A DNA stretch of 64,000 nt, taken from contig NZ_JAAABN010000005.1 in assembly GCF_011516765.1 (NCBI RefSeq), forward strand, positions 62,001 to 126,000, in the 5' to 3' direction. The stretch comes from Acetobacter sicerae. Lineage in GTDB: Bacteria; Pseudomonadota; Alphaproteobacteria; Acetobacterales; Acetobacteraceae. Position numbers and translations under genes: made by a program. Below are positions 40,345-54,958 of this stretch, piece after piece. Numbering within the stretch: the stretch's first letter is position 1; every line of letters starts with the position of its first letter. Below the pieces are notes generated by a model. It ran no database searches. It saw only the letters and a list, made by a program, of their open reading frames with translations, and was not told the DNA's origin.

Positions 40345-41832
40345 CTACCTGCCCTTGCGGGGCGAAATCAGCCACGCATCAGCATAACCCGTTGTGCCGC
40401 GGAGATGTGGACGGCCGACGGCAAGATAAAGCAACGCCGAGACAACGACGACGACAAGCCCGATAAGCATTGAATAGTTGATGTACCACGCGGCGTCCGG
40501 CGTGCGGGGCCAGAGAATGTTGATGATCGCCAGAACACCGTAAATGAGAGCAGCAATATTGATGGCTGTTCCCCAGCGTCCGAGGGTGAAGTCACCACTT
40601 GGTTTCCAGCCACGAAAACGCGCATAGAGCGCTCCGGCCACGACCATCTGAAAAGCCACGTAGATGCCGACCACGGCGAAGCTGACGATGGTGGTCAGGG
40701 CGTCGGCGGCAAAGAATCCCAGCACGGCGATGGCGCTCGGCACGAGACCTGCCACGAATAGGGCTGTTGTCGGCACGTGACTGTGGGGAGAGATGCGGGA
40801 CAGCGCCTTTGCTCCGGGGATCATGCGGTCACGGGAGAAGGAGTAGATCAGACGGCTCACGGCGGCCTGCAGACTGAGTACGCAGGACATGAACGAGACC
40901 ATGACAATGGCCGCCACGCCTTTTGTGCCGGTGGAGCCAAAGGCGTTCAGCAGGACATCGCTCAGGGCGTTGGGTGTTTCGCCGGAAATGACGGCAGGGA
41001 TATTGGGCACAGCCAGCAGCAGGGCGGCGCAGGCAAAGATGGAGGCGCCGACACCGATATAGATCGTCATGCGCATGGCTTTGGGAATCTGTTTTCCAGG
41101 GTTGGGAATTTCTTCAGCGACATCACCGCAGGCTTCGAACCCGTAGCAGGAAAACAGTCCGAGCAGGGACGCAGCGAGAAAAGCCGGAAGATAGCTGCCA
41201 TTCACAGGAGCCGCATTCATCGGGTCAAGCAGTGATCCAAGCGAATTGACGCGATGGAACACCAGCAGATACCCTCCGACGAACAGGGCTCCCACCAGTT
41301 CGCATACAAATCCAAACATGGCGACCCTGGCGAGAAGTTTTGTACCTGCGAGGTTGCATGCCGTTGAAAAGATGATGAGCGCGAGGGCGATGGCTGTCGT
41401 GATGAAAGGCGTGCTGGGCGCGCCGGTCAGCAGGGCGAGGAAGGGCGCGGCGCCTGTTGCGACAGCCGCGATGGTGGTGAAAAGTGCCCAGACGTACACC
41501 CATGCGGTCACCCATGACCATTTGCGGCCGACCAGACGCCGTGCCCACGGGTAGATTCCACCGGATATCGGAAACTGTGAGACAACCTCACCAAAGATGA
41601 GAGCCACCAGAAACTGTCCTAGTCCGGCGATGACATACGACCAGATCATCGGGCTTCCGCCCGTCTGCAGGCTGCTGTCGAACAGCGTGTAAACACCGAC
41701 GACAGGCGAAAGATAGGTAAAGCCGAGAGCGAAATTCTCAAGCATGGACATGGAACGGTCGAAATCGGATTTTACGCCGAGCGCCTCAAGTCGGGCGTCG
41801 TCTTCCGGTGAACTGATATGGGAATGATCCAT
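40345..41832 (-). CDS. APC-family permease, GABA/choline (ACT) type
   Basis: A 495-residue transporter with about 12 hydrophobic segments. Its start (DDARLEALGVKSDFDRSMSM) and the FGEVVSQFPISGGIYPWARR segment are typical of the amino acid/choline (ACT) branch that includes yeast Uga4. AAGGAA precedes the ATG at 41832. It is the last gene of the minus-strand demethylase operon, 31 bp after the haem subunit, so it likely imports the substrate or product, plausibly GABA or a methylated relative. Confidence 0.82.
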   Translation of the reverse strand: MDHSHISSPEDDARLEALGVKSDFDRSMSMLENFALGFTYLSPVVGVYTLFDSSLQTGGSPMIWSYVIAGLGQFLVALIFGEVVSQFPISGGIYPWARRLVGRKWSWVTAWVYVWALFTTIAAVATGAAPFLALLTGAPSTPFITTAIALALIIFSTACNLAGTKLLARVAMFGFVCELVGALFVGGYLLVFHRVNSLGSLLDPMNAAPVNGSYLPAFLAASLLGLFSCYGFEACGDVAEEIPNPGKQIPKAMRMTIYIGVGASIFACAALLLAVPNIPAVISGETPNALSDVLLNAFGSTGTKGVAAIVMVSFMSCVLSLQAAVSRLIYSFSRDRMIPGAKALSRISPHSHVPTTALFVAGLVPSAIAVLGFFAADALTTIVSFAVVGIYVAFQMVVAGALYARFRGWKPSGDFTLGRWGTAINIAALIYGVLAIINILWPRTPDAAWYINYSMLIGLVVVVVSALLYLAVGRPHLRGTTGYADAWLISPRKGR

Positions 41833-41863
41833 TAAAGATTCCTTGCTGCGTGGGGTCGTGGCG

Positions 41864-42940
41864 TCAGGCTGGGCAGCCGACTGGACGGAGTGACTGGATA
41901 TCCGGCGCGATACCCGGTGAAGTTGGGGAGCCGTCATCGAAAGCGGCGAGGTAAGCCACTGCTGTCGGCAGGAAACGGACCAGACCTTTGTAGGCTGCCA
42001 GTTCCGGAGGGAGATCACGGAGCACGCGATGAAGGCGCCGTCCCCATTTCGGTACCCGGCACAGTTCACCGAAGCTGGCGAAATAGGTGCGGATATTGAA
42101 CAGAATGGCGTTGGAGCCGGGCAGGCGGTAAAGACTCTGCAATTCCACCCTCAGAAACAGGGAGTTGCCGATGTTATCCGGTGTGATCGTCGTGCGATCC
42201 GGGCCCCAGACAGGATAATTCTCCGCGGATGTGTCGAAACGGGGATTGACGGTCAGTGTCCAGTTGAGACGTCGCACGGGACGCCCGACCTGCAATTTCA
42301 GAAGATATTGCAACGCCCGATCGAAAATACCCATTTCCGTAGCGACGGTGGCCGGTCCATGCCATTCGTCAAAGGACATTCCCAGGTCAAAGGCGGGGGA
42401 ATAATCGGCGGCTCCTGTAACAGTGACGCCGTCGAGGAACAGGTTGCCGTCACGCTGGTCCTGTAATGTGAAATCCCCCTGAGCCTGTCGGGTGATATAC
42501 TCAAAGGGTCCACAGGGCAGGGTGGAAGCGTTCCCGAAGGTAAATGTGTCCTGCAGGCCAAGGGGGCGATTATGCCAGGTCCATTGATCTCCATCACGCG
42601 TCAAGGTGAACAGGTCCGGATAATCTTTGACCATGTCTGACATGATGAGTTCCAGCGCATCCCATTCCGCATCATGCATGTGCGGGAGGACAGTGCAACG
42701 CGATGGTTCTGCGGCAAGGAGTTCCGCACGATCCTGACATTCGGCGATGTAATGCTCGTCCACGTCAAACTGTGCGCTGAACGCTTCGGTTGGACCACCC
42801 CGAGTGTGCGGTTCGATGTTGACGGAATAGGTGTAGCTGTCCTCTGGAAAAGGAAATGGAAAACGCAGGAGAGCTGCATCACTGTTGCTGAAGTGGAACG
42901 GAACGCGGAATTTCTCGTCCCTATGAAAGCAGATTGACAT
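41864..42940 (-). CDS. Haem-dependent oxidative N-demethylase, alpha (DUF3445) subunit
   Basis: A 358-residue DUF3445 protein. The alpha subunit of the characterised Pseudomonas mendocina enzyme of this family uses a PAS-like fold to bind haem and demethylate dimethylamine-type substrates with O2 and reducing power. The family signature is seen at LFLRVELQSLYRLPGSNAI followed by LFNIRTYF (residues 261-287). GAGGTG precedes the ATG at 42940; an in-frame GTG nine bases upstream is possible but less well placed. The reductase gene ends 33 bp upstream. Substrate here is not known. Confidence 0.85.
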   Translation of the reverse strand: MSICFHRDEKFRVPFHFSNSDAALLRFPFPFPEDSYTYSVNIEPHTRGGPTEAFSAQFDVDEHYIAECQDRAELLAAEPSRCTVLPHMHDAEWDALELIMSDMVKDYPDLFTLTRDGDQWTWHNRPLGLQDTFTFGNASTLPCGPFEYITRQAQGDFTLQDQRDGNLFLDGVTVTGAADYSPAFDLGMSFDEWHGPATVATEMGIFDRALQYLLKLQVGRPVRRLNWTLTVNPRFDTSAENYPVWGPDRTTITPDNIGNSLFLRVELQSLYRLPGSNAILFNIRTYFASFGELCRVPKWGRRLHRVLRDLPPELAAYKGLVRFLPTAVAYLAAFDDGSPTSPGIAPDIQSLRPVGCPA

Positions 42941-42973
42941 GATTGTCACCTCGTCTGGTCAGGAAAGGGAGAG

Positions 42974-43915
42974 TCAGAGATCCAGGGTGAGACACGCACC
43001 GTGTGCACGAGAGACACAGGGCATGATCCAGCGTCCTGACGCCTTTTCATCGGCGGAGAGAAAATGGTCGCGGTGCTCCGGTGTGCCTGCCAGAACGGGT
43101 GTCCGGCACATCCCGCATGCGCCGCCACGGCAGAGGCTGGTGATGGGAACGTCGGCGGATTCCAGCGCGTCAAGAAGTGTCTGGTCTTCCGCGACCGGGA
43201 TGGTTCCGCCAGTACGGGCGAGTGTCACGGTAAAGGGATTGCCCCCGCCGGCCCCGAAACTCTCCTGATGGATGCGTCGTTCCGGCCAGCCCATGGCGGT
43301 TGCTTCCGTAAGGACACGCTCCATCATCGCATTGGGGCCGCATGTGTAAATATAGGTTCCCAGCGGCTGACGCCGGAACAGCGTCTGAAAATCGAGGGCG
43401 TTCCGTCCTGCGTGCACACAGGCAACGCCTTGACCAAAGGGGGCCAGAAGAGATTCGAAAACCGGCTTTTCCTCAGGCGTGCAGAACTGATGAAACTCCA
43501 GAGTTTCGCCCCGTTCCATGCGTGCTCGGGCCAGCGCCAGAAGTGGCGTGACGCCGACACCGCCGCCAATCAGGAGTATCTTTTTTGCCGTGCTTTCCAG
43601 TGCGAGAAAGTTGGAGGGGCAGGATGCGTTCAGAATGCTGTCGACCGTCAGTTCTTTATGAACGAATGCCGAGCCGCCGCGTGACGTTGGTGAGTGGCGG
43701 ACGATGATTTCGTAAAATGTCCCCCCTTTCCCTGCCTGTGTGATGGAATAGGCGTTGCGACGTGCGCCATCTTTTACTGGAAGATCCAGCACCAGATGAG
43801 ATCCGGGTGTAACGGATGGGAGTTTGTTCGCATTGGCGCTTGTCAATCGGAGACGAAGGAGGGTCGGGGAAAGCAGATCTCTTTCCGCAACGCGGAGAGC
43901 AAGTGTATCCATCAT
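42974..43915 (-). CDS. Oxidoreductase with FMN and 2Fe-2S domains (demethylase beta)
   Basis: A 313-residue electron-transfer protein of the phthalate-dioxygenase-reductase type: flavin-binding RNAYSI (53-58), nucleotide-binding IGGGVGVTPLL and CGPNAMM, and a C-terminal plant-type 2Fe-2S domain with Cys262, Cys267, Cys270 and Cys300. It would pass electrons from NAD(P)H to the haem subunit. The ATG at 43915 overlaps the stop of the upstream gene as ATGA; an upstream frame is ignored. Confidence 0.87.
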   Translation of the reverse strand: MMDTLALRVAERDLLSPTLLRLRLTSANANKLPSVTPGSHLVLDLPVKDGARRNAYSITQAGKGGTFYEIIVRHSPTSRGGSAFVHKELTVDSILNASCPSNFLALESTAKKILLIGGGVGVTPLLALARARMERGETLEFHQFCTPEEKPVFESLLAPFGQGVACVHAGRNALDFQTLFRRQPLGTYIYTCGPNAMMERVLTEATAMGWPERRIHQESFGAGGGNPFTVTLARTGGTIPVAEDQTLLDALESADVPITSLCRGGACGMCRTPVLAGTPEHRDHFLSADEKASGRWIMPCVSRAHGACLTLDL

Positions 43916-44487
43916 GTCAGGGCCTCCACGGTGGGAAGGATGCCGGGGGTTTCCGCATCGGCCTGAACGCCGAGATAGGCGCCGTGCAAGCGGGAGAAAT
44001 GATCTCGTACTTCTAATGTGGCGCCACATCCGTCACAGGTGATCAGTGTCATGCTGATGTTTCGGGTCAGCGTATGGCAATGGGCGCACATGACGGTGCG
44101 TGTCAGGGGACCGAGTTTGAAAAGGCTGTATTCATCACGGGAGAGACCAGCCTGTTCGGCGATACGGGCTGTTTTCCAGATGAAATCTTCACTTCCGGCA
44201 GCGTAGAGCCGTAACCCCATCTGTTCGTGAGCAAGACGTCCCGCAAGTGTTTCGGTCAATTGTGAAACAGACCGGAAGGAACGCAGGCCATTATGTTGTT
44301 GCGGAAGAATCGTACTGCCGCCGTGTACAACCCACACTTCATCGAATGTGTCGGGATCTGTTTCTGATCGCAGGCAGGAAGGATCGAGCGTGGGTTTGTC
44401 CGTCAATATCAATGAAAACTGCACATTCGGACTGATCCCGAACGGTAAGTAAACCGGCCGACTTTTTACTGGGGACGACGGGATCAT
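43912..44487 (-). CDS. DmmA-like dimethylamine monooxygenase subunit
   Basis: A 191-residue protein resembling the DmmA-type subunit found beside DUF3445 haem enzymes. Its C-terminal part has four cysteines as CAHC (134-137) and CDGC (151-154), a zinc-ribbon or rubredoxin-like site. The middle WVVHGGSTILPQQ and FIWKTARIAEQAGL segments match that family as I remember it. The ATG at 44487 is used; a TTG six bases earlier is possible. It is first in the minus operon, overlapping the reductase by four bases. Confidence 0.75.
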   Translation of the reverse strand: MIPSSPVKSRPVYLPFGISPNVQFSLILTDKPTLDPSCLRSETDPDTFDEVWVVHGGSTILPQQHNGLRSFRSVSQLTETLAGRLAHEQMGLRLYAAGSEDFIWKTARIAEQAGLSRDEYSLFKLGPLTRTVMCAHCHTLTRNISMTLITCDGCGATLEVRDHFSRLHGAYLGVQADAETPGILPTVEALT

Positions 44488-44596
44488 CTGCAAGCATCTC
44501 CCAATGTTCGTGTGTGGTGAAAACGTTTCAGCAGATGCACGGGTGGGTGAATCTGCGATCGTGGTATTGCCGCGTTCAGCTTAGACAATTGTTTTG

Positions 44597-44629
44597 ATAT
44601 CGCACCAGTCTCTAATGCCAATATCGCAC
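44597..44629. promoter_or_regulatory. Direct repeat in the divergent control region
   Basis: ATATCGCAC occurs at 44597-44605 and again at 44621-44629, 24 bases apart, upstream of the demethylase operon. The 439-bp divergent region 44488-44926 has no gene and becomes very AT-rich near 44750-44860. The repeats are candidate regulator or activator sites; the partner is unknown. Confidence 0.35.
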
Positions 44630-44813
44630 TATCGTCATAGTCGATGGCTCAGAGGAGAATCCTGAAAAAAGAGCCCATCAGTACGTGCTGAAATCGACAT
44701 ACCTCTGTGAATGGAGAGTCTGAATGGCAGATTCATCGGAAAAACATAAAATTACCGAGACTCAAAAGGAAAAGTAATAAAATAATTATTATATATCAAT
44801 TTCTTATAAATGT

Positions 44814-44828
44814 ATCGGAATATCCGAT
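44814..44828. promoter_or_regulatory. LysR-type (T-N11-A) dyad before the aldehyde dehydrogenase
   Basis: ATCGG-AATAT-CCGAT (44814-44828) is a perfect dyad. Within it T815 and A827 are 11 bases apart, the classic LysR-type site form. It lies about 100 bp before the dehydrogenase start. The LysR gene at 50366 is the natural candidate regulator, though it is not adjacent. Confidence 0.45.
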
Positions 44829-44926
44829 GTTTCTTATTGGCATTATATATTGGTTTGGTATCGTAACGTATGCCACGGTTCAGGAAACAGGCGGTCCGCA
44901 ACGGTTCGCTGGCTTGAGGGGCGTGT

Positions 44927-46357
44927 ATGGTACTGACCAGAATGCTGATTGGTTCCGACTTTGTTGAAGGCGCGGGAGAGAAGGAGACACTCTTTGCGCC
45001 GATGACGGGTGACGTCATCATGGAACTGGCAAGCGCATCGACGGAACAGGTTGATGCGGCTGTGCTGGCGGCTTCTGAGGCCTTTCCGGCCTGGTCGATG
45101 ACGACACCGGCCGAACGCTCCATGTGTCTGCTGAAAGTGGCCGACGCCATTGAACGGGACGCAGAAACATTTGCCGAACTGGAAGCTAGGAATACAGGCA
45201 AGCCCCGTCACCTGATACTGAGTGATGAAATTCCGGCTCTCGTTGACTGTTTCCGTTTTTTCGCGTCAGCAGCAAGAAATCTGAGTGGGCCGATCGCCGG
45301 AGAGTATCTGGCGGGGTACACGTCCATGCTGCGACGTGCGCCAGTGGGCGTGGTGGCATGCATTGCGCCGTGGAATTATCCGTTGCTGATGGCGACGTGG
45401 AAACTGGCCCCGGCTCTGGCCGCGGGCAACAGTTGTGTCATCAAGCCTTCTGAAAACACGCCCTTTACAATTCTGCATCTTGGAAAGATTTTTGCAGAAA
45501 TAATGCCAGCCGGTGTGGTCAATGTCGTTCTGGGAAGAGGCAATTCTGTCGGGCAGCAGCTTCTGGATCATCCGGACGTCGCCATGGTGTCGCTCACGGG
45601 GGATATTGCGACAGGAAGAAAGGTCATTGCCGCCGCCGCCCGCTCCGTGAAGCGGACACATCTGGAGTTGGGAGGAAAGGCCCCTGTCATCGTCTATGAT
45701 GATGCCGATCTGGAGGCGGTTGTGCAGGGTGTGCGGACTTTTGGATATTACAACGCCGGACAGGACTGCACGGCTGCATGTCGGGTCTATGCCGACGAGA
45801 AGGTATATGACCGTCTGGTTGCCGATCTGACGGCTTCAGTCAAAAAAATCTCTTTTGGACACAGGAATGATGCAAGGAATGAGATCCCGCCTCTGATTTC
45901 CGCGCGTCAGCGTTCCCGTGTCGCCGCTTTTGTCGAGCGTGCGGCGGAACTTCCTCATGTCGAAATCACAACCGGTGGAGATATGGCTGAAGGCAGAGGG
46001 TATTTTTACAAACCCACAGTGATCGCTGGCGCGCTTCCCGGAGATGAAATTGTGGAGCGGGAAGTTTTCGGTCCGGTTGTATCCGTGACACGCTGCCGGG
46101 ATATGGATGCAGTCATCCGGAATGTGAACAACTCGCCTTATGGACTGGCTTCTTCCGTCTGGACCGGAAACATCAGTCGCGGCATGGAGGCTGCGTCACG
46201 CCTTCGGTACGGGTGCACGTGGGTCAATACACATTTCATGCTGGTCAATGAAATGCCGCATGGTGGATTCCGGAATTCCGGTTACGGTAAGGACATGAGT
46301 CTCGGATCGATCGAAGACTACACGGTGTCCCGGCATGTCATGGTAAAATGGAACTGA
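44927..46357 (+). CDS. patD: Gamma-aminobutyraldehyde dehydrogenase
   Basis: It would oxidise 4-aminobutanal (from putrescine) to GABA with NAD. The 476-residue product has catalytic Cys281 in YYNAGQDCTAACR, the general base Glu247 in THLELGGKAPVI, and a C-terminus (YGCTWVNTHFMLVNEMPHGG to GYGKDMSLGSIEDYTV) close to E. coli PatD/YdcW. GAGGGG precedes the ATG. An ABC importer follows as in the E. coli ydcSTUVW region. Betaine-aldehyde or a methylated aldehyde is an alternative substrate. Confidence 0.85.
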   Translation: MVLTRMLIGSDFVEGAGEKETLFAPMTGDVIMELASASTEQVDAAVLAASEAFPAWSMTTPAERSMCLLKVADAIERDAETFAELEARNTGKPRHLILSDEIPALVDCFRFFASAARNLSGPIAGEYLAGYTSMLRRAPVGVVACIAPWNYPLLMATWKLAPALAAGNSCVIKPSENTPFTILHLGKIFAEIMPAGVVNVVLGRGNSVGQQLLDHPDVAMVSLTGDIATGRKVIAAAARSVKRTHLELGGKAPVIVYDDADLEAVVQGVRTFGYYNAGQDCTAACRVYADEKVYDRLVADLTASVKKISFGHRNDARNEIPPLISARQRSRVAAFVERAAELPHVEITTGGDMAEGRGYFYKPTVIAGALPGDEIVEREVFGPVVSVTRCRDMDAVIRNVNNSPYGLASSVWTGNISRGMEAASRLRYGCTWVNTHFMLVNEMPHGGFRNSGYGKDMSLGSIEDYTVSRHVMVKWN

Positions 46358-46362
46358 CAATA

Positions 46363-47379
46363 ATGACGGATGAGTCTTCCCTGCATGCGCCTGCGGTCAG
46401 CCTGACCGCCCTGACCAAATCCTACGGTCACGGCAAGCCGGTTCTGAAAGGCATTGATCTGACCATTCAGCGCGGCGAGTTCTTTACCATGCTGGGTCCG
46501 TCCGGCTCCGGAAAGACCACCACCCTGCGTCTGATCGGTGGATTTGAGTTGCCGGATTCCGGAGAGGTTTTTCTCAACGGCGTCAAGGTTACAAGACTTC
46601 CTCCATACAGGCGTGATGTCAACACGATGTTTCAGGACTATGCGTTGTTTCCGCATATGAGTCTTCAGGACAATGTCGCCTACGGCATGAAGATCAGAGG
46701 CGTGGATAAAGCCGAGCGGACCGAGCGCGCCACGAAAGCGCTCGCCATGGTGCATCTGGAAGCTGTGGGAGATCGTCGTCCTTCCCAGCTTTCAGGTGGC
46801 CAGAGGCAGCGTGTGGCGCTGGCGCGCGCTCTGGTGAATGAACCTTCCCTGATTCTGCTTGATGAACCATTGGGCGCTCTGGATCTGAAACTGCGTCGGG
46901 AGATGCAGGTGGAACTGAAGAAGATCCAGAAACAGACCGGAATAACCTTTGTTTATGTCACGCATGATCAGGAAGAGGCGCTGAGCATGAGTGATCGCAT
47001 TGCCGTGTTTTCGGAGGGTGTGATTGAACAGATCGGGACGCCGGAAGAGCTGTACGAGCGGCCTGCGAGCGGTTTTGTCGCCCGTTTTATCGGATCATCC
47101 AATATCCTGAATGAAAGTGGAGGTGAGATTCTGCTGCGGCCGGAAGATATCCGGCTGGAAACGCAGGATTATGCGCTGACATCGGATGAGGCCGGTTTGT
47201 CGGGTCTTGTTCAGGAGATTTCCTACCTCGGCCCGGTCACACGTTGCCGTGTGGCTACGACCGACGGTGACAGGAGTGTCACCGCCATGGTGCCGTCGCG
47301 TCAGGCGCGTGGGTTGGACGAGAATATGGCCGTTCGGGCTGTATGGTCGAAAGAGTCTGCCTATCCTCTTTCATCGTAA
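46363..47379 (+). CDS. ydcT: Polyamine-type ABC importer ATPase (YdcT/PotA-like)
   Basis: A 338-residue ATPase with Walker [12 protein letters not shown], signature [15 protein letters not shown], Walker [13 protein letters not shown] and a C-terminal TOBE-type regulatory domain. The ATG at 46363 follows the dehydrogenase stop; an ATG at 46348 overlaps it. Downstream is the binding protein. The gene order dehydrogenase, ATPase, binding protein, two permeases is a permuted version of ydcSTUVW. Confidence 0.88.
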
Positions 47380-47418
47380 AGGGATTTTCGGAATGTCTTG
47401 TGTTTTCAGGAAGAAAGG

Positions 47419-48558
47419 ATGACGACCATGAAGGGTTTCAGTGCACTGCTTCTGGCTACCTGTTGCACCGCGATGATGGCGCAGGCGTATGCGGCGGATC
47501 TTCCGACCTCTGTCGGTAAAGGCGAAGGCGACCTGAACGTCGTTGCCTGGGAGGGTTACGCCGACGACGCCTGGGTCAAACCGTTTGAAGAACAGACCGG
47601 ATGCAAGGTCCATCGCAAGTATGTCGGTTCGTCCGACGAGATGGTGGCGCTGACCCGTATGGGTGGCGGCAAGGGGTTTGATGTTGTTTCGGCGTCCGGC
47701 GACGCAGCGCTTCGGTTGATCTTCGGCAAGAACGTGCAGCCTGTGAACATAAGCCTGATTCCGGCCTATGCCGATCTCATGCCGGAACTCAAGGAGCCGT
47801 CCTTCAACACGGTGAAGGGCGTTCATTACGGCATTTCCTATGAGTGGGGACCAAATGTCCTCATGTGGAACACGAAAACGATCACGACAGCTCCGACAAG
47901 CTGGTCTGTCATTTACGATAAGGCGCATACGGGCGTTATCACGGTTCCGGACAACCCGATCCAGATTGCGGATGCGGCGCTGTATCTGTCGCACACAAAG
48001 CCTGAACTTGGCATCACAGACCCTTATGAGCTGACGCAGACGCAGATGGATGCGGTGGTGGCGTTGCTGAAAGAGCAGCGGCCGCTCGTCAAGAAATACT
48101 GGGCGCTGGCGTCAGACGAAGTTGACCTCTTCAAGAGTGGAGATGCGCAGGTCGGTGCGGCGTGGCCGTATCAGGCCAACACGCTGCGGGCGGCGAACGT
48201 GCCTGTGCAGGACACCATTCCAACTGAAGGGGCCACGGGTTGGGCGGATACGTGGATGATCAGCACCCACGCGGAACATCCGAACTGTGCCTATCTGTGG
48301 ATCAATCATGTGATGACGCCGAAAGTTCAGGCGCAGCAGGCGCTGTCTTTTGGTGAGACGCCTGCGAATACCAAGGCCTGTGCGGAGATGGACGCGACCC
48401 AGCCGGGTTCGTGCAAACAGTATCATGCTGATGCATCGGCGGCCTATTTCTCGACGATCAAGTTCTGGAAAACACCTGTCAAACAGTGTGGAAATGGTCA
48501 GAGTAACTGTCTTGATTATGCCGCCTGGCAGCGTGCATGGCAGCAGGTCAAACAGTAA
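47419..48558 (+). CDS. ydcS: Periplasmic binding protein (YdcS-like)
   Basis: A 379-residue binding protein with a signal peptide (MKGFSALLLATCCTAMMAQA, cut after YAA). The mature part has VVAWEGYADDAWVKPFEEQTG, SASGDAALRLIFGKNVQPVN, YEWGPNVLMWNTKT and TGWADTWMISTHAEHPNCAY, strongly like E. coli YdcS. Starts at 47419 (AGGAAG) or 47428 (AAAGGA) both fit. It is presumed to capture putrescine, spermidine or a methylated amine. Confidence 0.85.
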   Translation: MTTMKGFSALLLATCCTAMMAQAYAADLPTSVGKGEGDLNVVAWEGYADDAWVKPFEEQTGCKVHRKYVGSSDEMVALTRMGGGKGFDVVSASGDAALRLIFGKNVQPVNISLIPAYADLMPELKEPSFNTVKGVHYGISYEWGPNVLMWNTKTITTAPTSWSVIYDKAHTGVITVPDNPIQIADAALYLSHTKPELGITDPYELTQTQMDAVVALLKEQRPLVKKYWALASDEVDLFKSGDAQVGAAWPYQANTLRAANVPVQDTIPTEGATGWADTWMISTHAEHPNCAYLWINHVMTPKVQAQQALSFGETPANTKACAEMDATQPGSCKQYHADASAAYFSTIKFWKTPVKQCGNGQSNCLDYAAWQRAWQQVKQ

Positions 48559-49409
48559 TGACAGACCGCCGGAAGCTTCTGGGGCATCTGGCCCTGCTGC
48601 TACCCCCGTTCGGGTGGCTGACGGTCTTCTATCTTGGCAGTCTGTTTGCCCTGCTGCTTTCGGCTTTCTGGCAGGTCGATTCAATGTCCGGCGAGATACT
48701 CCACGAGTGGACGCTGGACAATTTCCGTATCCTCGCCACGGATAGTACCTACCGTGTTATTGCGGAGAGGACGATCGGTATTGCGGTGCTGGTCACGATT
48801 ACGGATATCATCCTTGCGTGGCCGCTGGCCTATGTCATCGCCCGCAAGGTTGGGCCGCGTATGAAGCTGGTTCTGCTCGTGCTGGTGGCGCTTCCACTCT
48901 GGTCGAGCATGCTGGCGCGGATTTATTCCTGGCGGCTGATTCTGGGCCATGACGGCGTGCTGAACTGGTTTCTGCGAACGGCAGGATTGCCGGAGCAGTC
49001 ATTCGCTTTCACGAATGTCGCTTTATGGATCGTGTTCACCTATCTGTGGCTGCCTTTCATGCTGATGCCTCTTGTTTCAGCTCTGGAACGGATTCCGGCC
49101 TCTCTTCCTGACGCGGCTGGGGATATGGGCGCTACACCGTTCCAGACATTCCGGACCGTGATCTTTCCACTCGCCATTCCGGGCATGGCGGCGGGGTCGG
49201 TTTTTACCTTTGCCGTCACACTGGGCGAGTATGTCACGCCGATGCTGGTGGGGGGCGCGGGGTCCGAGTTTATCGGCAACGTGGTCTATTCGAATGTAGG
49301 CGTGTCCGGAAATATTCCGTTTGCAGCCGCCTATTCCATGATCCTTCTCGTGGTGGTCGGCGCCTACATGTTGCTTGCCCGGCGGTTCGGAGCGTTTGAC
49401 GGAGCATGA
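48558..49409 (+). CDS. ydcU: ABC importer permease (YdcU-like)
   Basis: A 283-residue inner-membrane protein with six hydrophobic segments and an EAA-type loop (DAAGDMGATPFQTFRTVIFP). The ATG at 48558 overlaps the binding-protein stop as TAATG. It pairs with the next permease. Confidence 0.87.
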   Translation: MTDRRKLLGHLALLLPPFGWLTVFYLGSLFALLLSAFWQVDSMSGEILHEWTLDNFRILATDSTYRVIAERTIGIAVLVTITDIILAWPLAYVIARKVGPRMKLVLLVLVALPLWSSMLARIYSWRLILGHDGVLNWFLRTAGLPEQSFAFTNVALWIVFTYLWLPFMLMPLVSALERIPASLPDAAGDMGATPFQTFRTVIFPLAIPGMAAGSVFTFAVTLGEYVTPMLVGGAGSEFIGNVVYSNVGVSGNIPFAAAYSMILLVVVGAYMLLARRFGAFDGA

Positions 49410-50194
49410 GTGGTTCGATGCGTAATCTTGCTCTCTGGGGCGCAGCATCAGCGGTGCTTGCGTTTCTACTGCTGCCGCTGTTGATCGTGCTGGTGTTCGC
49501 GTTCGATGCGTCATCCGTGCAGGTCTGGCCAATCCATTCCTTTTCTCTGAAATGGTTTTACGCCACCTGGGCGGATGAGGAAGTGAGGAGTGCGCTGCTT
49601 GTCTCTCTGGAGGTGGCCGGTTTGGCGACACTGCTTGCATCCGTGCTCGGGACACTGGCGGCAGTGGGGATGAATGGTCTTTCTTCCCGTGCGGTTCAGG
49701 TGGGATCATTCTTTCTCACGCTTCCCATTGCGTTGCCAGGTGTGCTGACCGGCATTGCGATGAACAGTTTTTTCACCGCGCTGGAGATTCCCTTCACGAT
49801 GGTGACGCTGGTGATTGCGCACACAACGTTCTGCACTGTGGTGATTTACAGCAATGTCATGGCGCGGCTACGGCGGCTTCCCCGCTCGCTGCTTGAAGCG
49901 GCGCAGGATATGGGTGCGACGCCTTTTCGGGGTTTTGCCAGTATCACTCTGCCTCTTTTGAGCGGATCGATTGTATCGGGAATGCTTCTGGCGTTTGCAC
50001 TGTCTTTCGATGAAGTGATCGTGTCCACCTTCACATCCGGTTCCGAAACAACCTTGCCGTTGTGGATCTTCGGCGCCATTCGTCTGGGGCAGCACATGCC
50101 GGAGGTGAATGTTGTGGTATTTGCTGTTGTGGCGGTGACATTGCTGCCGATCATCCTTGGTCAGAAGCTGGCCGCGTCCGCATCCAGAGAGTAG
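49406..50194 (+). CDS. ydcV: ABC importer permease (YdcV/PotC-like)
   Basis: A 262-residue inner-membrane partner permease with the EAA loop EAAQDMGATPFRGFASITLP and the SFDEVIVSTFTSG segment typical of PotC/YdcV. Its start overlaps the previous gene as ATGA. A 171-bp gap without a credible gene separates it from the LysR gene. Confidence 0.87.
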   Translation: MSGSMRNLALWGAASAVLAFLLLPLLIVLVFAFDASSVQVWPIHSFSLKWFYATWADEEVRSALLVSLEVAGLATLLASVLGTLAAVGMNGLSSRAVQVGSFFLTLPIALPGVLTGIAMNSFFTALEIPFTMVTLVIAHTTFCTVVIYSNVMARLRRLPRSLLEAAQDMGATPFRGFASITLPLLSGSIVSGMLLAFALSFDEVIVSTFTSGSETTLPLWIFGAIRLGQHMPEVNVVVFAVVAVTLLPIILGQKLAASASRE

Positions 50195-50365
50195 GTCGTA
50201 TGAAGGAATGTATGCTGGCGCCGGAGTTGACAGGGTCCTGTTATGAAACTCGCGATGTTCTGCTGAATGCGTCGGGTGACAAGTGAGACTCTCCGGAAAA
50301 CATCGGGAGCAGTGGTGTGAGTCCTCGTCGGTCTCGCTCTGCATCCGTGAGGAAAACTGTCCGTT

Positions 50366-51277
50366 ATGGCGCTGACATTACGCCAGCTTCGATATTTTGC
50401 GTCTGTTGCGGAGGTCGGCTCGATCTCCGGTGCTGCAATGGTTCTGTTGGTTTCCCAGTCAACGGTGACGGAAGCCCTGCGTGATCTTGAAGCCGAGATG
50501 GGGTTCCGGCTTCTTGACCGTCATGCGCGCGGTGTTGTTCTGACCCGTCGTGGACAGCAGTTTTTCCAACGTGTGCAGCGTATTCTTGATGGCGTCGCCG
50601 ATGCGCAGAGCATGAAGGACGAGGATGAAGAGGCGCTTGTCGGCACGCTTACTCTCGGCGTGACGCAGGTTGTGGCGGGGTATGTCCTGCCCGATCTTCT
50701 GACACGATTCCGGCGCGCTTTTCCAAAGGTGGATGTAATACTGATAGAGGAGCAGTCCGATTATCTCGATCACATGCTGGTAAGCGGGGAACTTGATCTT
50801 GCCGTGATGCTGCGTCTCGGCAGTTCGGTTCCCAGCGCCTGTGGTGCGCATGTGATGGGGGTTTCTCCTCATCATGTCTGGTTGTCTCATGGACATCCTC
50901 TTGCGCAGGAAAAGCAGGTGAGCCTGAAGCAGTTGGATCAGGAGCCTTTCATAACGCTTGCTGCCGATATTCTTGAAAGCAGAATGACGGCGGTCTGTGA
51001 GAAGTTTGCTTTTCAGCCCGTGTCCTATTTCCGGTCGACATCCATTGAAGCCATACGAAGTCTGGTGGCTGCCGGGCATGGTATCGCCCTGTTGCCGCAA
51101 CTGATCTATCGGCCATGGTCGCTTGAAGGTGAAAAGATAGAATCCCGGCCGGTGCAGGAGGAACTTCCGACTGCGGATCTGCTGGTGATGTGGCGACGTG
51201 GTCTGCCACTGGCCGCTCCGGCGCAGTATTTCATGGACATGGCGTTGCAGCGGACGGATCGTGTTGCAGGCTGGTAA
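50366..51277 (+). CDS. LysR-type transcriptional regulator
   Basis: A 303-residue regulator: an N-terminal winged helix (LRQLRYFASVAEVGSISGAA to ALRDLEAEMGFRLLDR) and a periplasmic-binding-like effector domain. It lies between the importer genes and gabT and is a likely activator of this catabolic locus; the T-N11-A dyad at 44814 is one possible target. Effector is unknown. Confidence 0.9.
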   Translation: MALTLRQLRYFASVAEVGSISGAAMVLLVSQSTVTEALRDLEAEMGFRLLDRHARGVVLTRRGQQFFQRVQRILDGVADAQSMKDEDEEALVGTLTLGVTQVVAGYVLPDLLTRFRRAFPKVDVILIEEQSDYLDHMLVSGELDLAVMLRLGSSVPSACGAHVMGVSPHHVWLSHGHPLAQEKQVSLKQLDQEPFITLAADILESRMTAVCEKFAFQPVSYFRSTSIEAIRSLVAAGHGIALLPQLIYRPWSLEGEKIESRPVQEELPTADLLVMWRRGLPLAAPAQYFMDMALQRTDRVAGW

Positions 51278-51295
51278 ATGGGAGGTATGCAGTGA

Positions 51296-51329
51296 AATAC
51301 TTTTCTTCTTTGACGGGTAGAAGAGTATT
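51296..51329 (+). promoter_or_regulatory. Hairpin between the LysR and gabT genes
   Basis: AATACT...CTTCT (51296-51309) pairs with AGAAG-AGTATT (51319-51329), leaving three bulged Ts. No T run follows. The 179-bp gap otherwise shows no gene and probably contains the gabT promoter. Confidence 0.35.
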
Positions 51330-51456
51330 GGAAGTGGGATTATGTGGAGTGCGGCGTGTGCAGTGCGCTCCGGTTGTGTCACAGCACTTGTCCGGATGCT
51401 TTGGATTTTGATGTCAGGCCGAGCCAGCCGGGCAGTTTTTGGATAGGGAAAGAAAC

Positions 51457-52737
51457 GTGAGTACAGGCAAGAGCAATAAGGATCTGTCGGCTCGTCGTGC
51501 AGCCGCCGTTCCTGTTGGTGTGGGATCGGCCACCGCTATTTACGCGGATCGCGCTCAGGGGGCTGAACTGTGGGATGTCGAAGGACGTCGCTACGTTGAC
51601 TTTGCAGCAGGTATCGCTGTGGTCAATGTTGGTCATCGTCATCCGGCTGTCATTCAGGCTGTGCAGGAACAGCTCGAACATTTCAGCCATACGGGCTTCC
51701 AGGTTGCTCCGTATGAAAACTATATTGCCCTTGCAGAACGTCTGAACGCTGCCGCACCATTCGATGGACCGGCGAAAAGCATTTTCTTCACGACCGGCGC
51801 AGAAGCGACCGAGAATGCCGTGAAGATCGCGCGTGCTGCGACAGGCCGGTCAGGTGTTATTGCGTTTACCGGTGGTTTCCATGGCCGCACACTGCTTGCG
51901 TCTGCCATGACCGGCAAGGTGAATCCTTACAAGACACAGTTCGGCACCATGCCGGGTGATGTCTTCCATGCGCCGTTCCCGGCTCGTGGTGTATCGGTTG
52001 CAGACAGCCTTAACGCGCTGGATCTGATGTTTGCCGCGGACATTGATCCATCCCGCGTGGCTGCGATCATCATCGAGCCGGTGCAGGGTGAAGGCGGCTT
52101 CCGGGTGAGCCCGAAGGAACTGCTGGAAGGCCTGCGCGAGCGTTGCACGAAGCACGGCATTCTGCTGATTGCAGACGAGGTTCAGACCGGTTTTGCCCGC
52201 ACAGGCAAGCTGTTCGGCATCCAGCATTCGGGCGTCAAGCCTGACCTGATCTCGGTCGCCAAGGCTCTTGGTGGCGGATTCCCGTTGTCCGGCGTCGTGG
52301 GTCGTGCAGAAATCATGGATGCTGTCCGTCCCGGCGGTCTTGGTGGCACGTATGGTGGTTCTCCGCTCGCCTGTGCCGCAGGTCTCGCGGTTCTGGATGT
52401 TATCGAAAAGGAAAAACTCTGTGCCCGTGCAGAGCATATCGGCGCGACGATCAGCAAGCGTATTGCGGGCTGGGCTGAGCGAAGTGACCTGACGCCTGTC
52501 GGCAAGGCTCATGGTCTTGGCGCGATGGTCGGTTTCGATGTGCTTGACGCACACGGTTCTGACGAGGTGAAAGCCGGTGGAGCGGGCCAGATCTGTGCGC
52601 GTGCGACAGAAGCTGGTCTGATCGTGCTGTCCTGTGGCGTTCTGGGTGAGACGGTTCGTCTCCTGCCGCCTCTGACCATCAGTGACGAACTGCTGAACGA
52701 GGGGCTGGATCTTCTTGAGAAGGTTCTCGCGGTCTGA
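51457..52737 (+). CDS. gabT: 4-aminobutyrate aminotransferase
   Basis: A PLP enzyme moving the amino group of GABA to 2-oxoglutarate, giving succinate semialdehyde. The 426-residue product (same length as E. coli GabT) has the PLP lysine at Lys269 in SVAKALGGGFPLSG and the IADEVQTGFARTG region with the PLP-ring Asp. The GTG at 51457, after AGGGAAAGAAAC, is preferred to a TTG at 51439. No succinate-semialdehyde dehydrogenase gene is in the window. Confidence 0.92.
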   Translation: MSTGKSNKDLSARRAAAVPVGVGSATAIYADRAQGAELWDVEGRRYVDFAAGIAVVNVGHRHPAVIQAVQEQLEHFSHTGFQVAPYENYIALAERLNAAAPFDGPAKSIFFTTGAEATENAVKIARAATGRSGVIAFTGGFHGRTLLASAMTGKVNPYKTQFGTMPGDVFHAPFPARGVSVADSLNALDLMFAADIDPSRVAAIIIEPVQGEGGFRVSPKELLEGLRERCTKHGILLIADEVQTGFARTGKLFGIQHSGVKPDLISVAKALGGGFPLSGVVGRAEIMDAVRPGGLGGTYGGSPLACAAGLAVLDVIEKEKLCARAEHIGATISKRIAGWAERSDLTPVGKAHGLGAMVGFDVLDAHGSDEVKAGGAGQICARATEAGLIVLSCGVLGETVRLLPPLTISDELLNEGLDLLEKVLAV

Positions 52738-52876: not shown

Positions 52877-54958
52877 TCAATAGTAAGTGTATGTTCTTTC
52901 ATTGTGTGTTGTCATGCTGCCGAGAATGGCGCTTGAGACAACAGAGGCAAAAATAGCCTGTCCGGTTTCAAGGAGTTGGCTGCCATCAGTCGTCGTGTAC
53001 CAGTTCCGGTTGGATTCCAGAAGAACGGCAAGATCGGTTCCTGGATCCACAACAACCAGCTTGTCGTCGTCCGGGTTTGAAAGTCTGTAATTGGTGATGG
53101 CATTTGTAAAAAGTTGTGGCCATGTCGCGCTGTAAGTCGAGGCATAGCGGAAGCCAAACGGCATGATGGCGAACAGCCATGCGTCAGGTGCTGCAGTTCG
53201 GTGAGCGATGAGACACTGTGTCATTGCGGCCTGCGCATCAGACTGGTTGGCGTAAGCCAGAGCATCACGGGACAGGAGATTGAAGGCAATCCATGTCGGC
53301 GGTGTTCCAATATCACCGTAGGAGCTGAGAAGGCCGTCGCTATCAAGGGCGGAAATGCCGGAATCAACGAGATTCCAACGACTTTTTGTGTCGCTATATC
53401 CACCTCCGAGTCCATTGCTTGATCCCGTTACCGAGTAAAACGCCGGAACGTCTTTCGTGCTGTCGCCAGCAGTGATGTAGCCTGAGCCGGTGCAGGCCGA
53501 TATGCAGGTCCGATAGCCTGCTGCTTCCATGCCGCGTAACAGGAAATATGCATAGGATGAAAGCACATTATCGCTACCGGCATCAGCCGATGTGCCCTCC
53601 GTCGTATCATCTCCCACCAGCTTGCCCCATGGTCGCGTTGCGACGATATATGCGCCCGAGGAGGCCGGATCTATTGTCATGCCGCTGATGGTGAGACAGT
53701 TGCTGCCTTTGTTCCAGCGGTCTGCATTTGGTGTTCGTGTCAGAAAGGCTTCCAGCCTGTTGACCTGTCCCGGCAGAATATTGGAAAGCGTGAGATCGGT
53801 TTTTGCGGCAATATCTCTGGTGGCGACACCATTAAGAAAATACGTGATATATGCACTGGTATTTGCGGGTCCAAGATGTATGGTGGCTGTAGGAGTTGCC
53901 GAAGCCAGCCATGAAACCTGAAACCATGCTCCCGGATTCCAGGTGCTGCGCCAGAGGGTGCCGTCACGTCCTTCATCGCCGGTCCAGTTTCCGGGAGAGA
54001 AGAGAAACGCTGAAGAGTCGACTGTGAGCGTATAGGCGGCGCTGAACGCCATGGCGGTGACGGTGAACGCGGCCGGGTTACTCAGTGCTGCTGAGTTGGT
54101 AACGGTAAAATTGCCAGTTCCCGCAACGAAAGGAGTGAATGTGAAAGTTAAAGGCGCTGTCGATCCTGCGGGAATAGTGCTGGTCTGCGGCGAGAATGTT
54201 CCTGCCAGTGTGCAACTGGGGACGACAGTAACTGCTTTTGTGTTGGCTGTGCCGCTTCCCGGAGTGATTGTGTAGGTGGCGGCTGAACCTACGGTCAGCG
54301 CTTGTGGTCCTGCCAGAGAGTATTGGGTAAAAGGTGCCTGTGTGGAAGCAACTGTTATAAACAGGTCACCCGGATCAGTCAGAGCGCCATTGCTGTTCGT
54401 GCTGAGCGTCCCCACACCGCTTGCCGTCGGGGTGAAGGTAAATGTGACCGCGCTGGTGGAGCCTGCTGGCAGAGAGATGACTGCAGGTGAAAAAGTGCCT
54501 GCCAGTGTGCAGAGCGGTGTGATTGTAATGGTCTGTGTCGAGGCGGATCCGGCGCCGGGTGTGATGGTGTAGGTGGACGCAACGCCAGCGGTCAGGCTGG
54601 AAGCGCCTGTCAGCGTGTAGGTTGTGAAGGTATTGGAGAGAGCGATCGAGAAGACGGAAAGAGCGATGGGATCAGTCAGGCCAGCAGAGTTTGTCGTGCT
54701 CAGGGTTCCCGAGCCTGCTTCGGTCGGTGTGAACGTGAACGTCACAGTGCTGGTGGAACCGACAGGCAGGGTAACGGTTGCGGGAGTAAAGATGCCGGAC
54801 AGTGTGCATGTCGGGGTGACGACCAGGGGTGCCGACAATGTCGTGCCTGCTGTCGGCGTCACGCTGAATATGGCTTTTGAACCCACGGACAGGGATGCTG
54901 GTCCTGTTAACGTATAGGCGGGCGTGATCAGGGGAATGACCGTGGAGGTATCGCTCAT
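52877..54958 (-). CDS. Ig-like repeat protein with catalytically altered SGNH-type domain
   Basis: A 693-residue protein. Residues 15-303 are three tandem repeats of about 95 residues (each with YTLTGP...TITPG and CTLAGTFSP...FTFTPT). A linker beta domain follows, then an SGNH-hydrolase-like C-terminus (about 430-680). Block I reads VGDDTTEG (448-455), where a Ser is expected at Asp451. The GTND-like position reads NLLSRDA (560-566), and the Asp-x-x-His block reads DGSQ (658-661), so Ser, Asn and His are all changed. No signal peptide is visible. It may bind sugars or acyl groups without catalysis. Confidence 0.65.
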   Translation of the reverse strand: MSDTSTVIPLITPAYTLTGPASLSVGSKAIFSVTPTAGTTLSAPLVVTPTCTLSGIFTPATVTLPVGSTSTVTFTFTPTEAGSGTLSTTNSAGLTDPIALSVFSIALSNTFTTYTLTGASSLTAGVASTYTITPGAGSASTQTITITPLCTLAGTFSPAVISLPAGSTSAVTFTFTPTASGVGTLSTNSNGALTDPGDLFITVASTQAPFTQYSLAGPQALTVGSAATYTITPGSGTANTKAVTVVPSCTLAGTFSPQTSTIPAGSTAPLTFTFTPFVAGTGNFTVTNSAALSNPAAFTVTAMAFSAAYTLTVDSSAFLFSPGNWTGDEGRDGTLWRSTWNPGAWFQVSWLASATPTATIHLGPANTSAYITYFLNGVATRDIAAKTDLTLSNILPGQVNRLEAFLTRTPNADRWNKGSNCLTISGMTIDPASSGAYIVATRPWGKLVGDDTTEGTSADAGSDNVLSSYAYFLLRGMEAAGYRTCISACTGSGYITAGDSTKDVPAFYSVTGSSNGLGGGYSDTKSRWNLVDSGISALDSDGLLSSYGDIGTPPTWIAFNLLSRDALAYANQSDAQAAMTQCLIAHRTAAPDAWLFAIMPFGFRYASTYSATWPQLFTNAITNYRLSNPDDDKLVVVDPGTDLAVLLESNRNWYTTTDGSQLLETGQAIFASVVSSAILGSMTTHNERTYTYY
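54050..54916 (-). repeat. Three in-frame protein-coding repeats
   Basis: These bases encode the three Ig-like repeats of about 95 residues (15-104, 114-204, 213-303). Each repeat has the aligned core TITPG or VTPTAG, then CTL(A/S)G(T/I)F(S/T)P and LPAGST. The second and third repeats are the most alike, which points to duplication within the gene. Confidence 0.75.

Follow-up and report, generated by a model that had tools for sequence, protein, structure and literature searches.

The window analysed here, a 64-kb stretch of DNA from Acetobacter sicerae, carries two divergent operons separated by an intergenic gap of 433 bp. The left operon, on the minus strand, consists of dmmA, dmmB, dmmC and a permease gene, in this order; the right side, on the plus strand, reads patD-ydcT-ydcS-ydcU-ydcV-LysR-gabT (Table 1). 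Proteins were assigned to families by Pfam and NCBIfam profile searches, bit scores being compared with the cut-off of each profile. All of the genes named in an earlier reading of this DNA, made from the letters alone (hereafter, the original prediction), are present where it had placed them; its open reading frames for the left operon were too long at the 5' end, and the starts were re-read from the sequence. Some assignments are to be taken broadly. PatD passes the subfamily profile NF010000 and misses the stricter equivalog TIGR03374 (ABALDH; 710 against 909 bits), while YdcS, with 349 against 725 bits for the equivalog NF041888, can only be called YdcS-like. The permease exceeds no NCBIfam cut-off (best score, 203 against 740 bits; 41 against 678 bits for the 4-aminobutyrate (GABA) permease profile TIGR01773), so that the earlier label "GABA/choline-type permease" is loose. 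PatD, a YdcTSUV-like importer and GabT thus stand together here as in the ydcSTUV-patD putrescine/aminobutyraldehyde cluster, whose gene names are those of E. coli; the window adds to this arrangement a LysR gene and a divergent permease gene, the latter occurring with or without dmmABC.

Table 1. Genes and predicted promoter elements of the divergent locus (window coordinates; bit scores against profile cut-offs).
Feature	Position	Strand	Basis
APC permease (AA_permease_2), 495 aa	40345..41832	-	Pfam/NCBIfam; start (ATG 41832) from sequence
dmmC, DUF3445 haem alpha subunit (HODM-like)	41864..42940	-	PF11927 218 vs 25 bits; 5LTE E 1.2e-130; start (ATG 42940) from sequence
dmmB, flavin/2Fe-2S reductase subunit	42974..43915	-	Fer2; FAD_binding_6 barely above cut-off; CX4CX2C...C in sequence; start (~43915) from sequence
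dmmA, DmmA-like subunit with CXXC...CXXC	43912..44487	-	PF22289, PF22290; NF041259 104 vs 60 bits; start (~44487) from sequence
Predicted dmm-side promoter element	44594..44645	-	Palindrome ATCG-N7-CGAT 44631-44645, TTGGCA 44616-44621, N16, TATCAA 44594-44599; matrix score 25.1
Predicted patD-side promoter element	44814..44864	+	Palindrome ATCG-N7-CGAT 44814-44828, TTGGCA 44837-44842, N16, TATCGT 44859-44864
patD-like aminobutyraldehyde dehydrogenase	44927..46357	+	NF010000 752 vs 615 bits
ydcT/potA-like ABC ATPase	46348..47379	+	TIGR01187 363 vs 356 bits
ydcS-like substrate-binding protein	47398..48558	+	NF041888 top match, under cut-off
ydcU-like ABC permease	48537..49409	+	BPD_transp_1
ydcV-like ABC permease	49406..50194	+	BPD_transp_1
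LysR-type regulator, proposed for both promoter elements	50366..51277	+	Pfam; binding predicted
gabT, 4-aminobutyrate transaminase	51439..52737	+	TIGR00700 542.5 vs 506.65 bits

The intergenic gap contains two copies of a putative promoter element, each oriented toward its own operon. Both begin with the palindrome ATCG-N7-CGAT, which we take to be a LysR-type box of the T-N11-A kind. The composite pattern ATCG-N7-CGAT-N(4-12)-TTGGCA has two matches in the 64-kb window, one ahead of each operon, and none of 100 shuffles yielded two; a promoter pattern of fixed spacing gave no match. The patD-side copy recurs in all nine other congeneric loci showing patD (eight relatives and L180). A matrix was built from nine patD-side sites, those of the window and of the eight relatives, L180 being kept outside; the patD site of the window thus contributes to the matrix itself, and the gap range was picked once the sites had been seen, the background being scanned with the same range. 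As scored by this matrix, the dmm/permease side carries the element in all six Acetobacter loci: 25.1 in the window, 17.5 in L170, 19.8 in L176, 25.9 in L171 (where the site stands before the permease), 24.0 in L172 and 20.5 in L174. The best background score is 15.2 among 214 loci (1.97 Mb) and 4.3 in the remainder of the window, and the methylamine stretches of the same genome (L202, L203) reach only 1.0 and 3.1; a possible vestige in genome G193, at -11.5, was not counted. In L172 (genome G217) and L174 (G1165) the permease lies on a contig other than that of ydcS, has different upstream genes and still keeps the element. Since the permease retains it away from patD, it is apparently a member of the patD-ydc regulon, with dmmABC placed between the permease and the permease's promoter. 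The shared promoter type probably defines a LysR regulon, with the LysR protein of the cluster as the candidate to bind the element. The original prediction had tied its case to co-regulation of the demethylase with the patD-gabT side; the presence of the same predicted element on both operons speaks for it.

The dmmABC genes are an intact gene set for a three-subunit N-demethylase of the HODM type: DmmA, the flavin/2Fe-2S subunit DmmB and DmmC are encoded in the order A-B-C. The cysteine motifs of DmmA and DmmB are kept, and so are His87 and His194 of DmmC, the sole histidine columns that are all-His across 77 aligned rows. His194 falls inside the haem-PAS region, which a table of PMC8694187 places at residues 155-290 of 5LTE, and may be the haem ligand. 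Full-length DmmC relatives with 98% and 84% identity are present in the protein database. In E. coli, dmmABC alone is reported to convert dimethylamine to methylamine (PMC5520151), and Paracoccus dmm mutants are reported not to grow on dimethylamine (PMC4543880); the three-subunit set is therefore of a described enzyme type, the dimethylamine monooxygenase, which the original prediction had overlooked. According to PMC5520151, dmmD of Ruegeria is needed for trimethylamine (TMA) and trimethylamine N-oxide (TMAO) and is dispensable for growth on dimethylamine; the paper also describes dmmD as neighbouring the other dmm genes in Roseobacters, "unlike in M. silvestris", so that a neighbour of this kind (dmmD, gmaS/mgs, tmm or tdm) is not essential to the enzyme.

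Compared with DmmABC(D) of Methylocella, Paracoccus and Ruegeria and with HODM, the window thus has the same subunits in the same order, with a DUF3445 haem subunit. It differs in that dmmD, gmaS, tmm and tdm (and mgs) were not found in the 64-kb window when all open reading frames of at least 120 aa were compared by blast with a reference set, in the promoter held in common with patD, in five clade-specific changes at near-invariant DmmC sites (see below) and in its permease. An equivalence of the window permease with the APC permease encoded in the dmm cluster of Paracoccus was considered and discarded, no blastp match being obtained at 1e-10; the Paracoccus protein may be TmoP, a tmoP TMAO permease gene being named in a figure legend of PMC4543880.

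A second dmm set, also missed by the original prediction, lies on contig C8 of the same genome, where tdm, tmm, dmmD, dmmA, dmmB and dmmC are preceded by ABC-transporter genes labelled tmoX/W. About 30 kb away lie gmaS (70% identical to the Methylobacterium sp. DM1 protein), mgsABC, purU and folD. The gmaS and mgsABC labels rest on DM1 proteins annotated as glutamate-ammonia ligase and glutamate-synthase-like, presumably those that go by these gene names. The genes labelled tdm, tmm and dmmD were recognised as homologues of genes in the Paracoccus pAMI6 cluster, their names being those used in PMC4543880. As judged from these homologies, the C8 set is embedded in what is otherwise a complete methylamine pathway. 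Its DmmC and that of the window are 59% identical; given a canonical set elsewhere in the genome, the window genes are a paralogous copy.

The gene neighbourhoods of dmmC were examined at 58 other loci. This set includes eight loci of no more than 16.2 kb, counts L134 and L038, which are one locus, and takes in 5 of the 19 permease-linked loci of a Pseudomonas-like genus (g455). At least one of dmmD, gmaS, mgsC, tmm and tdm is found near dmmC in 50 of the 58. All 50 are among the 53 loci without the window-type permease, against none of the five loci that have it; three loci (L040, L041 and L139, the last a 5.9-kb contig) show neither a methylamine gene nor the permease. Near kin of the window DmmC with a readable context also sit in methylamine clusters, as in Methylobacterium sp. 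DM1, next to mgsABC-gmaS.

In the Pseudomonas-like genus, of which 25 genomes were searched, the permease directly follows dmmC in 19 of the 19 genomes with dmmC. In four of these 19 genomes there is a further dmmC that lacks the permease; the two such copies that were read adjoin dmmD and tmm. The operon dmmA-dmmB-dmmC-permease of this genus is like that of the window in having the permease after dmmC, and no methylamine genes lie near it in the five loci read. It differs in showing a sigma-54-like promoter and no patD, ydcS or gabT nearby in those five, and it is sister to the window operon in neither the dmmC nor the permease tree; the dmmC-permease pairing may therefore have arisen twice. 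Transfer of dmmABC plus permease as one cassette from this genus was considered and set aside, as neither tree (the permease tree being a quick one) joins the two. By eye, the sigma-54-like sequence TTGGCACAGYCTGTGC was recognized upstream of dmmA in all five loci (L204, L205, L206, L245 and L246). L205 also has a gene for a PAS/sigma-54 activator close by, which shares 44% identity with an activator gene in the vicinity of permease locus L239.

Forty-nine congeneric genomes were examined, 13 of which, the window's own included, have a window-type YdcS; dmmC searches covered 44 of the 49. In the 12 other genomes with window-type ydcS, patD adjoins ydcT in nine, and gabT is part of the cluster in seven. 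Window-type DmmC was found only in the window's own genome (G000) among the 44 searched; a C8-type protein (56-59%) is present in six congeners and a 42% form in one. Two genomes, G412 and G186, lack a segment corresponding to approximately 42163-44395 of the window, with end points agreeing within nine bases; at the deletion site the permease is retained in G412 (97-98% identity) and broken in G186. Neither dmmABC nor the permease stands at this spot in G166 and G193, while in G362 the permease is directly divergent from patD, without dmmABC. Genomes G412 and G362 gave no gmaS-type match and no dmmC match, yet keep the permease and the patD cluster.

Permease relatives with 83-97% identity are present in 4 other of the 49 congeneric genomes, that of G1165 differing very little from a protein recorded for Acetobacter papayae. 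Farther out, proteins of Sphingobium, Sphingopyxis and Pseudomonas share 59-72% identity with the permease, and two among the best 120 matches carry the name "Putrescine importer PuuP". Twelve permease contexts were read that belong neither to Acetobacter nor to a dmm operon. An aldehyde dehydrogenase gene accompanies the permease in Shinella (L230), in a Pseudomonas-like locus (L247), in three loci of one genus (L207-L209; PuuC-like in L207) and in Streptomyces (L232). In L230 and L247 the neighbour is an aminobutyraldehyde dehydrogenase above the NF010000 cut-off, the gene order in L247 being LysR-patD-ydcSTUV-patD-permease. The contexts without an aldehyde dehydrogenase are the Acidocella-like L239-L241, L242, L243 and L231 of Rhodococcus. 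Neither dmmC nor patD-ydc lies alongside the five other Acetobacteraceae permeases (L239-L243). Each of L239-L241 has two glutamine-synthetase-like genes, and a P450 and a sigma-54 activator were seen in L239. In L231 (7388-12908), from plasmid p5 of Rhodococcus sp. DN22, a permease relative with 52% identity adjoins genes for an FAD-dependent oxidoreductase and a cytochrome P450, which we take to be the xplB/xplA pair of RDX degradation. In L034, assigned to Acidisphaera rubrifaciens by protein match, putative hydantoinase A/B genes lie near dmmABC; relatives of these genes lie near the permease-patD-LysR genes of Shinella L230.

Residue changes in DmmC were scored over 25 clades drawn by hand on the tree. 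Both permease-linked clades and the distant clade L117-L119 were kept out of the conservation reference, and columns conserved in at least 98% of the other reference rows (94 columns) were considered. The window clade (three rows) differs at five of the 94, namely G172V, W180Y, L182P, V197A and P198T (5LTE numbering), and the permease-linked clade of the Pseudomonas-like genus at 11; the 23 control clades, two of which overlap, differ at 0-3. Put otherwise, the window clade keeps 89 and the window protein 88 of the 94 columns, R275G being a sixth change in the window protein alone. The clade-wise control was added because a row-by-row control hides changes shared within a clade. All five changes fall within the N-terminal third of the haem-PAS region, V197 and P198 lying 3-4 residues past His194; they may reflect an altered pocket. 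The distant DUF3445 clade, L117-L119 (same family; L119 same genus), is 41-43% identical to the window DmmC and deviates, in at least one of its three rows, at 25 of the 94 columns. L117 and L118 come with a reductase and L119 with a DmmA-like protein, and no methylamine gene was matched in these loci.

Altogether, we incline, with confidence just short of even, to the view that the window DmmABC is an N-demethylase placed under a putrescine/GABA-type regulon, its substrate probably being an N-methylated amine different from dimethylamine. Counted in its favour are the shared promoter element, the canonical set elsewhere in the genome, the difference between dmm loci with and without the linked permease, the DmmC changes, the persistence of the permease in G412 and G362 and its position beside an aminobutyraldehyde dehydrogenase in L230 and L247. 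The inducer of the regulon would be a putrescine- or aminobutyrate-like amine, in the presence of which the permease and the ABC importer would take up amines. With NAD(P)H and O2, DmmABC would release the N-methyl group as formaldehyde, and PatD and GabT would carry the C4 product to succinate semialdehyde. N-methylputrescine, N-methyl-GABA or a similar compound would then be the substrate rather than dimethylamine, and the product could flow into PatD/GabT. As the cluster has no enzyme for the conversion of putrescine to 4-aminobutyraldehyde, the best-fitting substrates would be N-methyl-GABA, leading directly to GabT, or N-methylputrescine dealkylated on its C4 side, leading directly to PatD. 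We hold more tentatively, at somewhat below even confidence, a wider form of this view: permease-linked DmmABC in Acetobacter and, separately, in the Pseudomonas-like genus would be haem N-demethylases with non-dimethylamine substrates. Here the substrate would be an N-methylated C4 amine (N-methylputrescine or 4-(methylamino)butyrate), demethylated or N-dealkylated on the C4 side (to 4-aminobutyraldehyde and methylamine), so as to feed PatD and GabT under one LysR regulon.

Several results weigh against a role in C4 amine breakdown. Co-occurrence of DUF3445 with patD, ydcSTUV and gabT, put forward as a test in the original prediction, was not observed: patD, ydcS and gabT (identity thresholds of at least 45%, 38% and 45%, respectively) were found within 10 kb of dmmC in none of the 58 other loci, and none of the 12 other congeners has an intact dmmABC at the ydc cluster (in G1165 the contig ends inside ydcT). 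The two sister species that lost dmmABC by deletion retain patD-gabT. The five permease-linked comparison loci belong to one genus and are not independent, and only six of the 12 permease contexts have an aldehyde dehydrogenase close by. The lack of a putrescine-to-aminobutyraldehyde enzyme concerns the cluster, the rest of the genome not having been searched for one. When the two promoters are simply aligned locally, the score is 26, a value reached by 5 of 2000 shuffles. In the row-by-row control of DmmC (62 rows, median 0), two reference rows differ at four columns, close to the five of the window clade, whose changes could stem from relaxed constraint or be neutral. Nor does W180Y, common to both permease-linked clades, serve as proof, approximately 0.6 shared columns being expected by chance (5 x 11 / 94). 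Thus, the pathway envisaged in the original prediction draws support from the shared promoter and none from genomic co-occurrence.

The main rival is a second dimethylamine monooxygenase, converting dimethylamine to methylamine and formaldehyde and passing the methylamine to GmaS/MgsABC encoded elsewhere. Its position in the patD regulon would be an accident of insertion or would let dimethylamine serve as a nitrogen source beside polyamines. The window DmmC shows 56% identity to the crystallised HODM of Pseudomonas mendocina (PDB 5LTE), 61% to the Paracoccus aminophilus DmmC and 65% to a protein from Methylocella silvestris that bears the name dimethylamine monooxygenase subunit alpha; this closeness, the activity of dmmABC alone in E. 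coli (PMC5520151), the methylamine clusters around its near kin and the gmaS and mgsABC genes of its own genome are all as expected of an isozyme. However, a dmmDABC set with tmm and tdm is already present in the genome, the shared element points to a polyamine/aminobutyrate signal, dmmD and gmaS are absent from the window, near-invariant residues are changed and the permease persists in two genomes without a GmaS or dmmC match. We give the isozyme a sizeable probability, though one distinctly below even. That dmmABC is a decaying accessory set, which arrived together with the permease or next to it, is of little use today and is disappearing from the genus, appears improbable: the near-identical deletion ends in G412 and G186, the broken G186 permease and the single window-type dmmC among 44 congeners would suit it, but all four genes are intact, the cysteine motifs and both histidines are kept, and full-length relatives exist at 98% and 84% identity.

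In the literature found, HODM/DmmABC enzymes have a role in methylamine breakdown (PMC5520151, PMC4543880), and a search of chiefly open-access literature found no paper describing a pathway that joins DmmABC/DUF3445 with putrescine, GABA, methylputrescine or methylaminobutyrate. The shared promoter element hints at such an undescribed route for methylated putrescine- or GABA-like compounds. If the favoured reading of a C4-amine demethylase is true, a member under polyamine/aminobutyrate control would extend the PAS-derived haem oxygenase to new amines, and the locus would offer a genetic handle on bacterial use of methylated polyamines, with one promoter element, one LysR gene and the deletions that sister species carry naturally. 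Because permease-linked dmm loci contrast with the others, the choice of substrate is directly testable.

Beyond gabT, at 52877-54958 on the minus strand, the window encodes a protein of 693 aa whose N-terminal part shows, by eye, about three repeats of approximately 95 residues. Open reading frames of 693-696 aa adjoin gabT in seven relatives, the match to the window protein being one of length and position.

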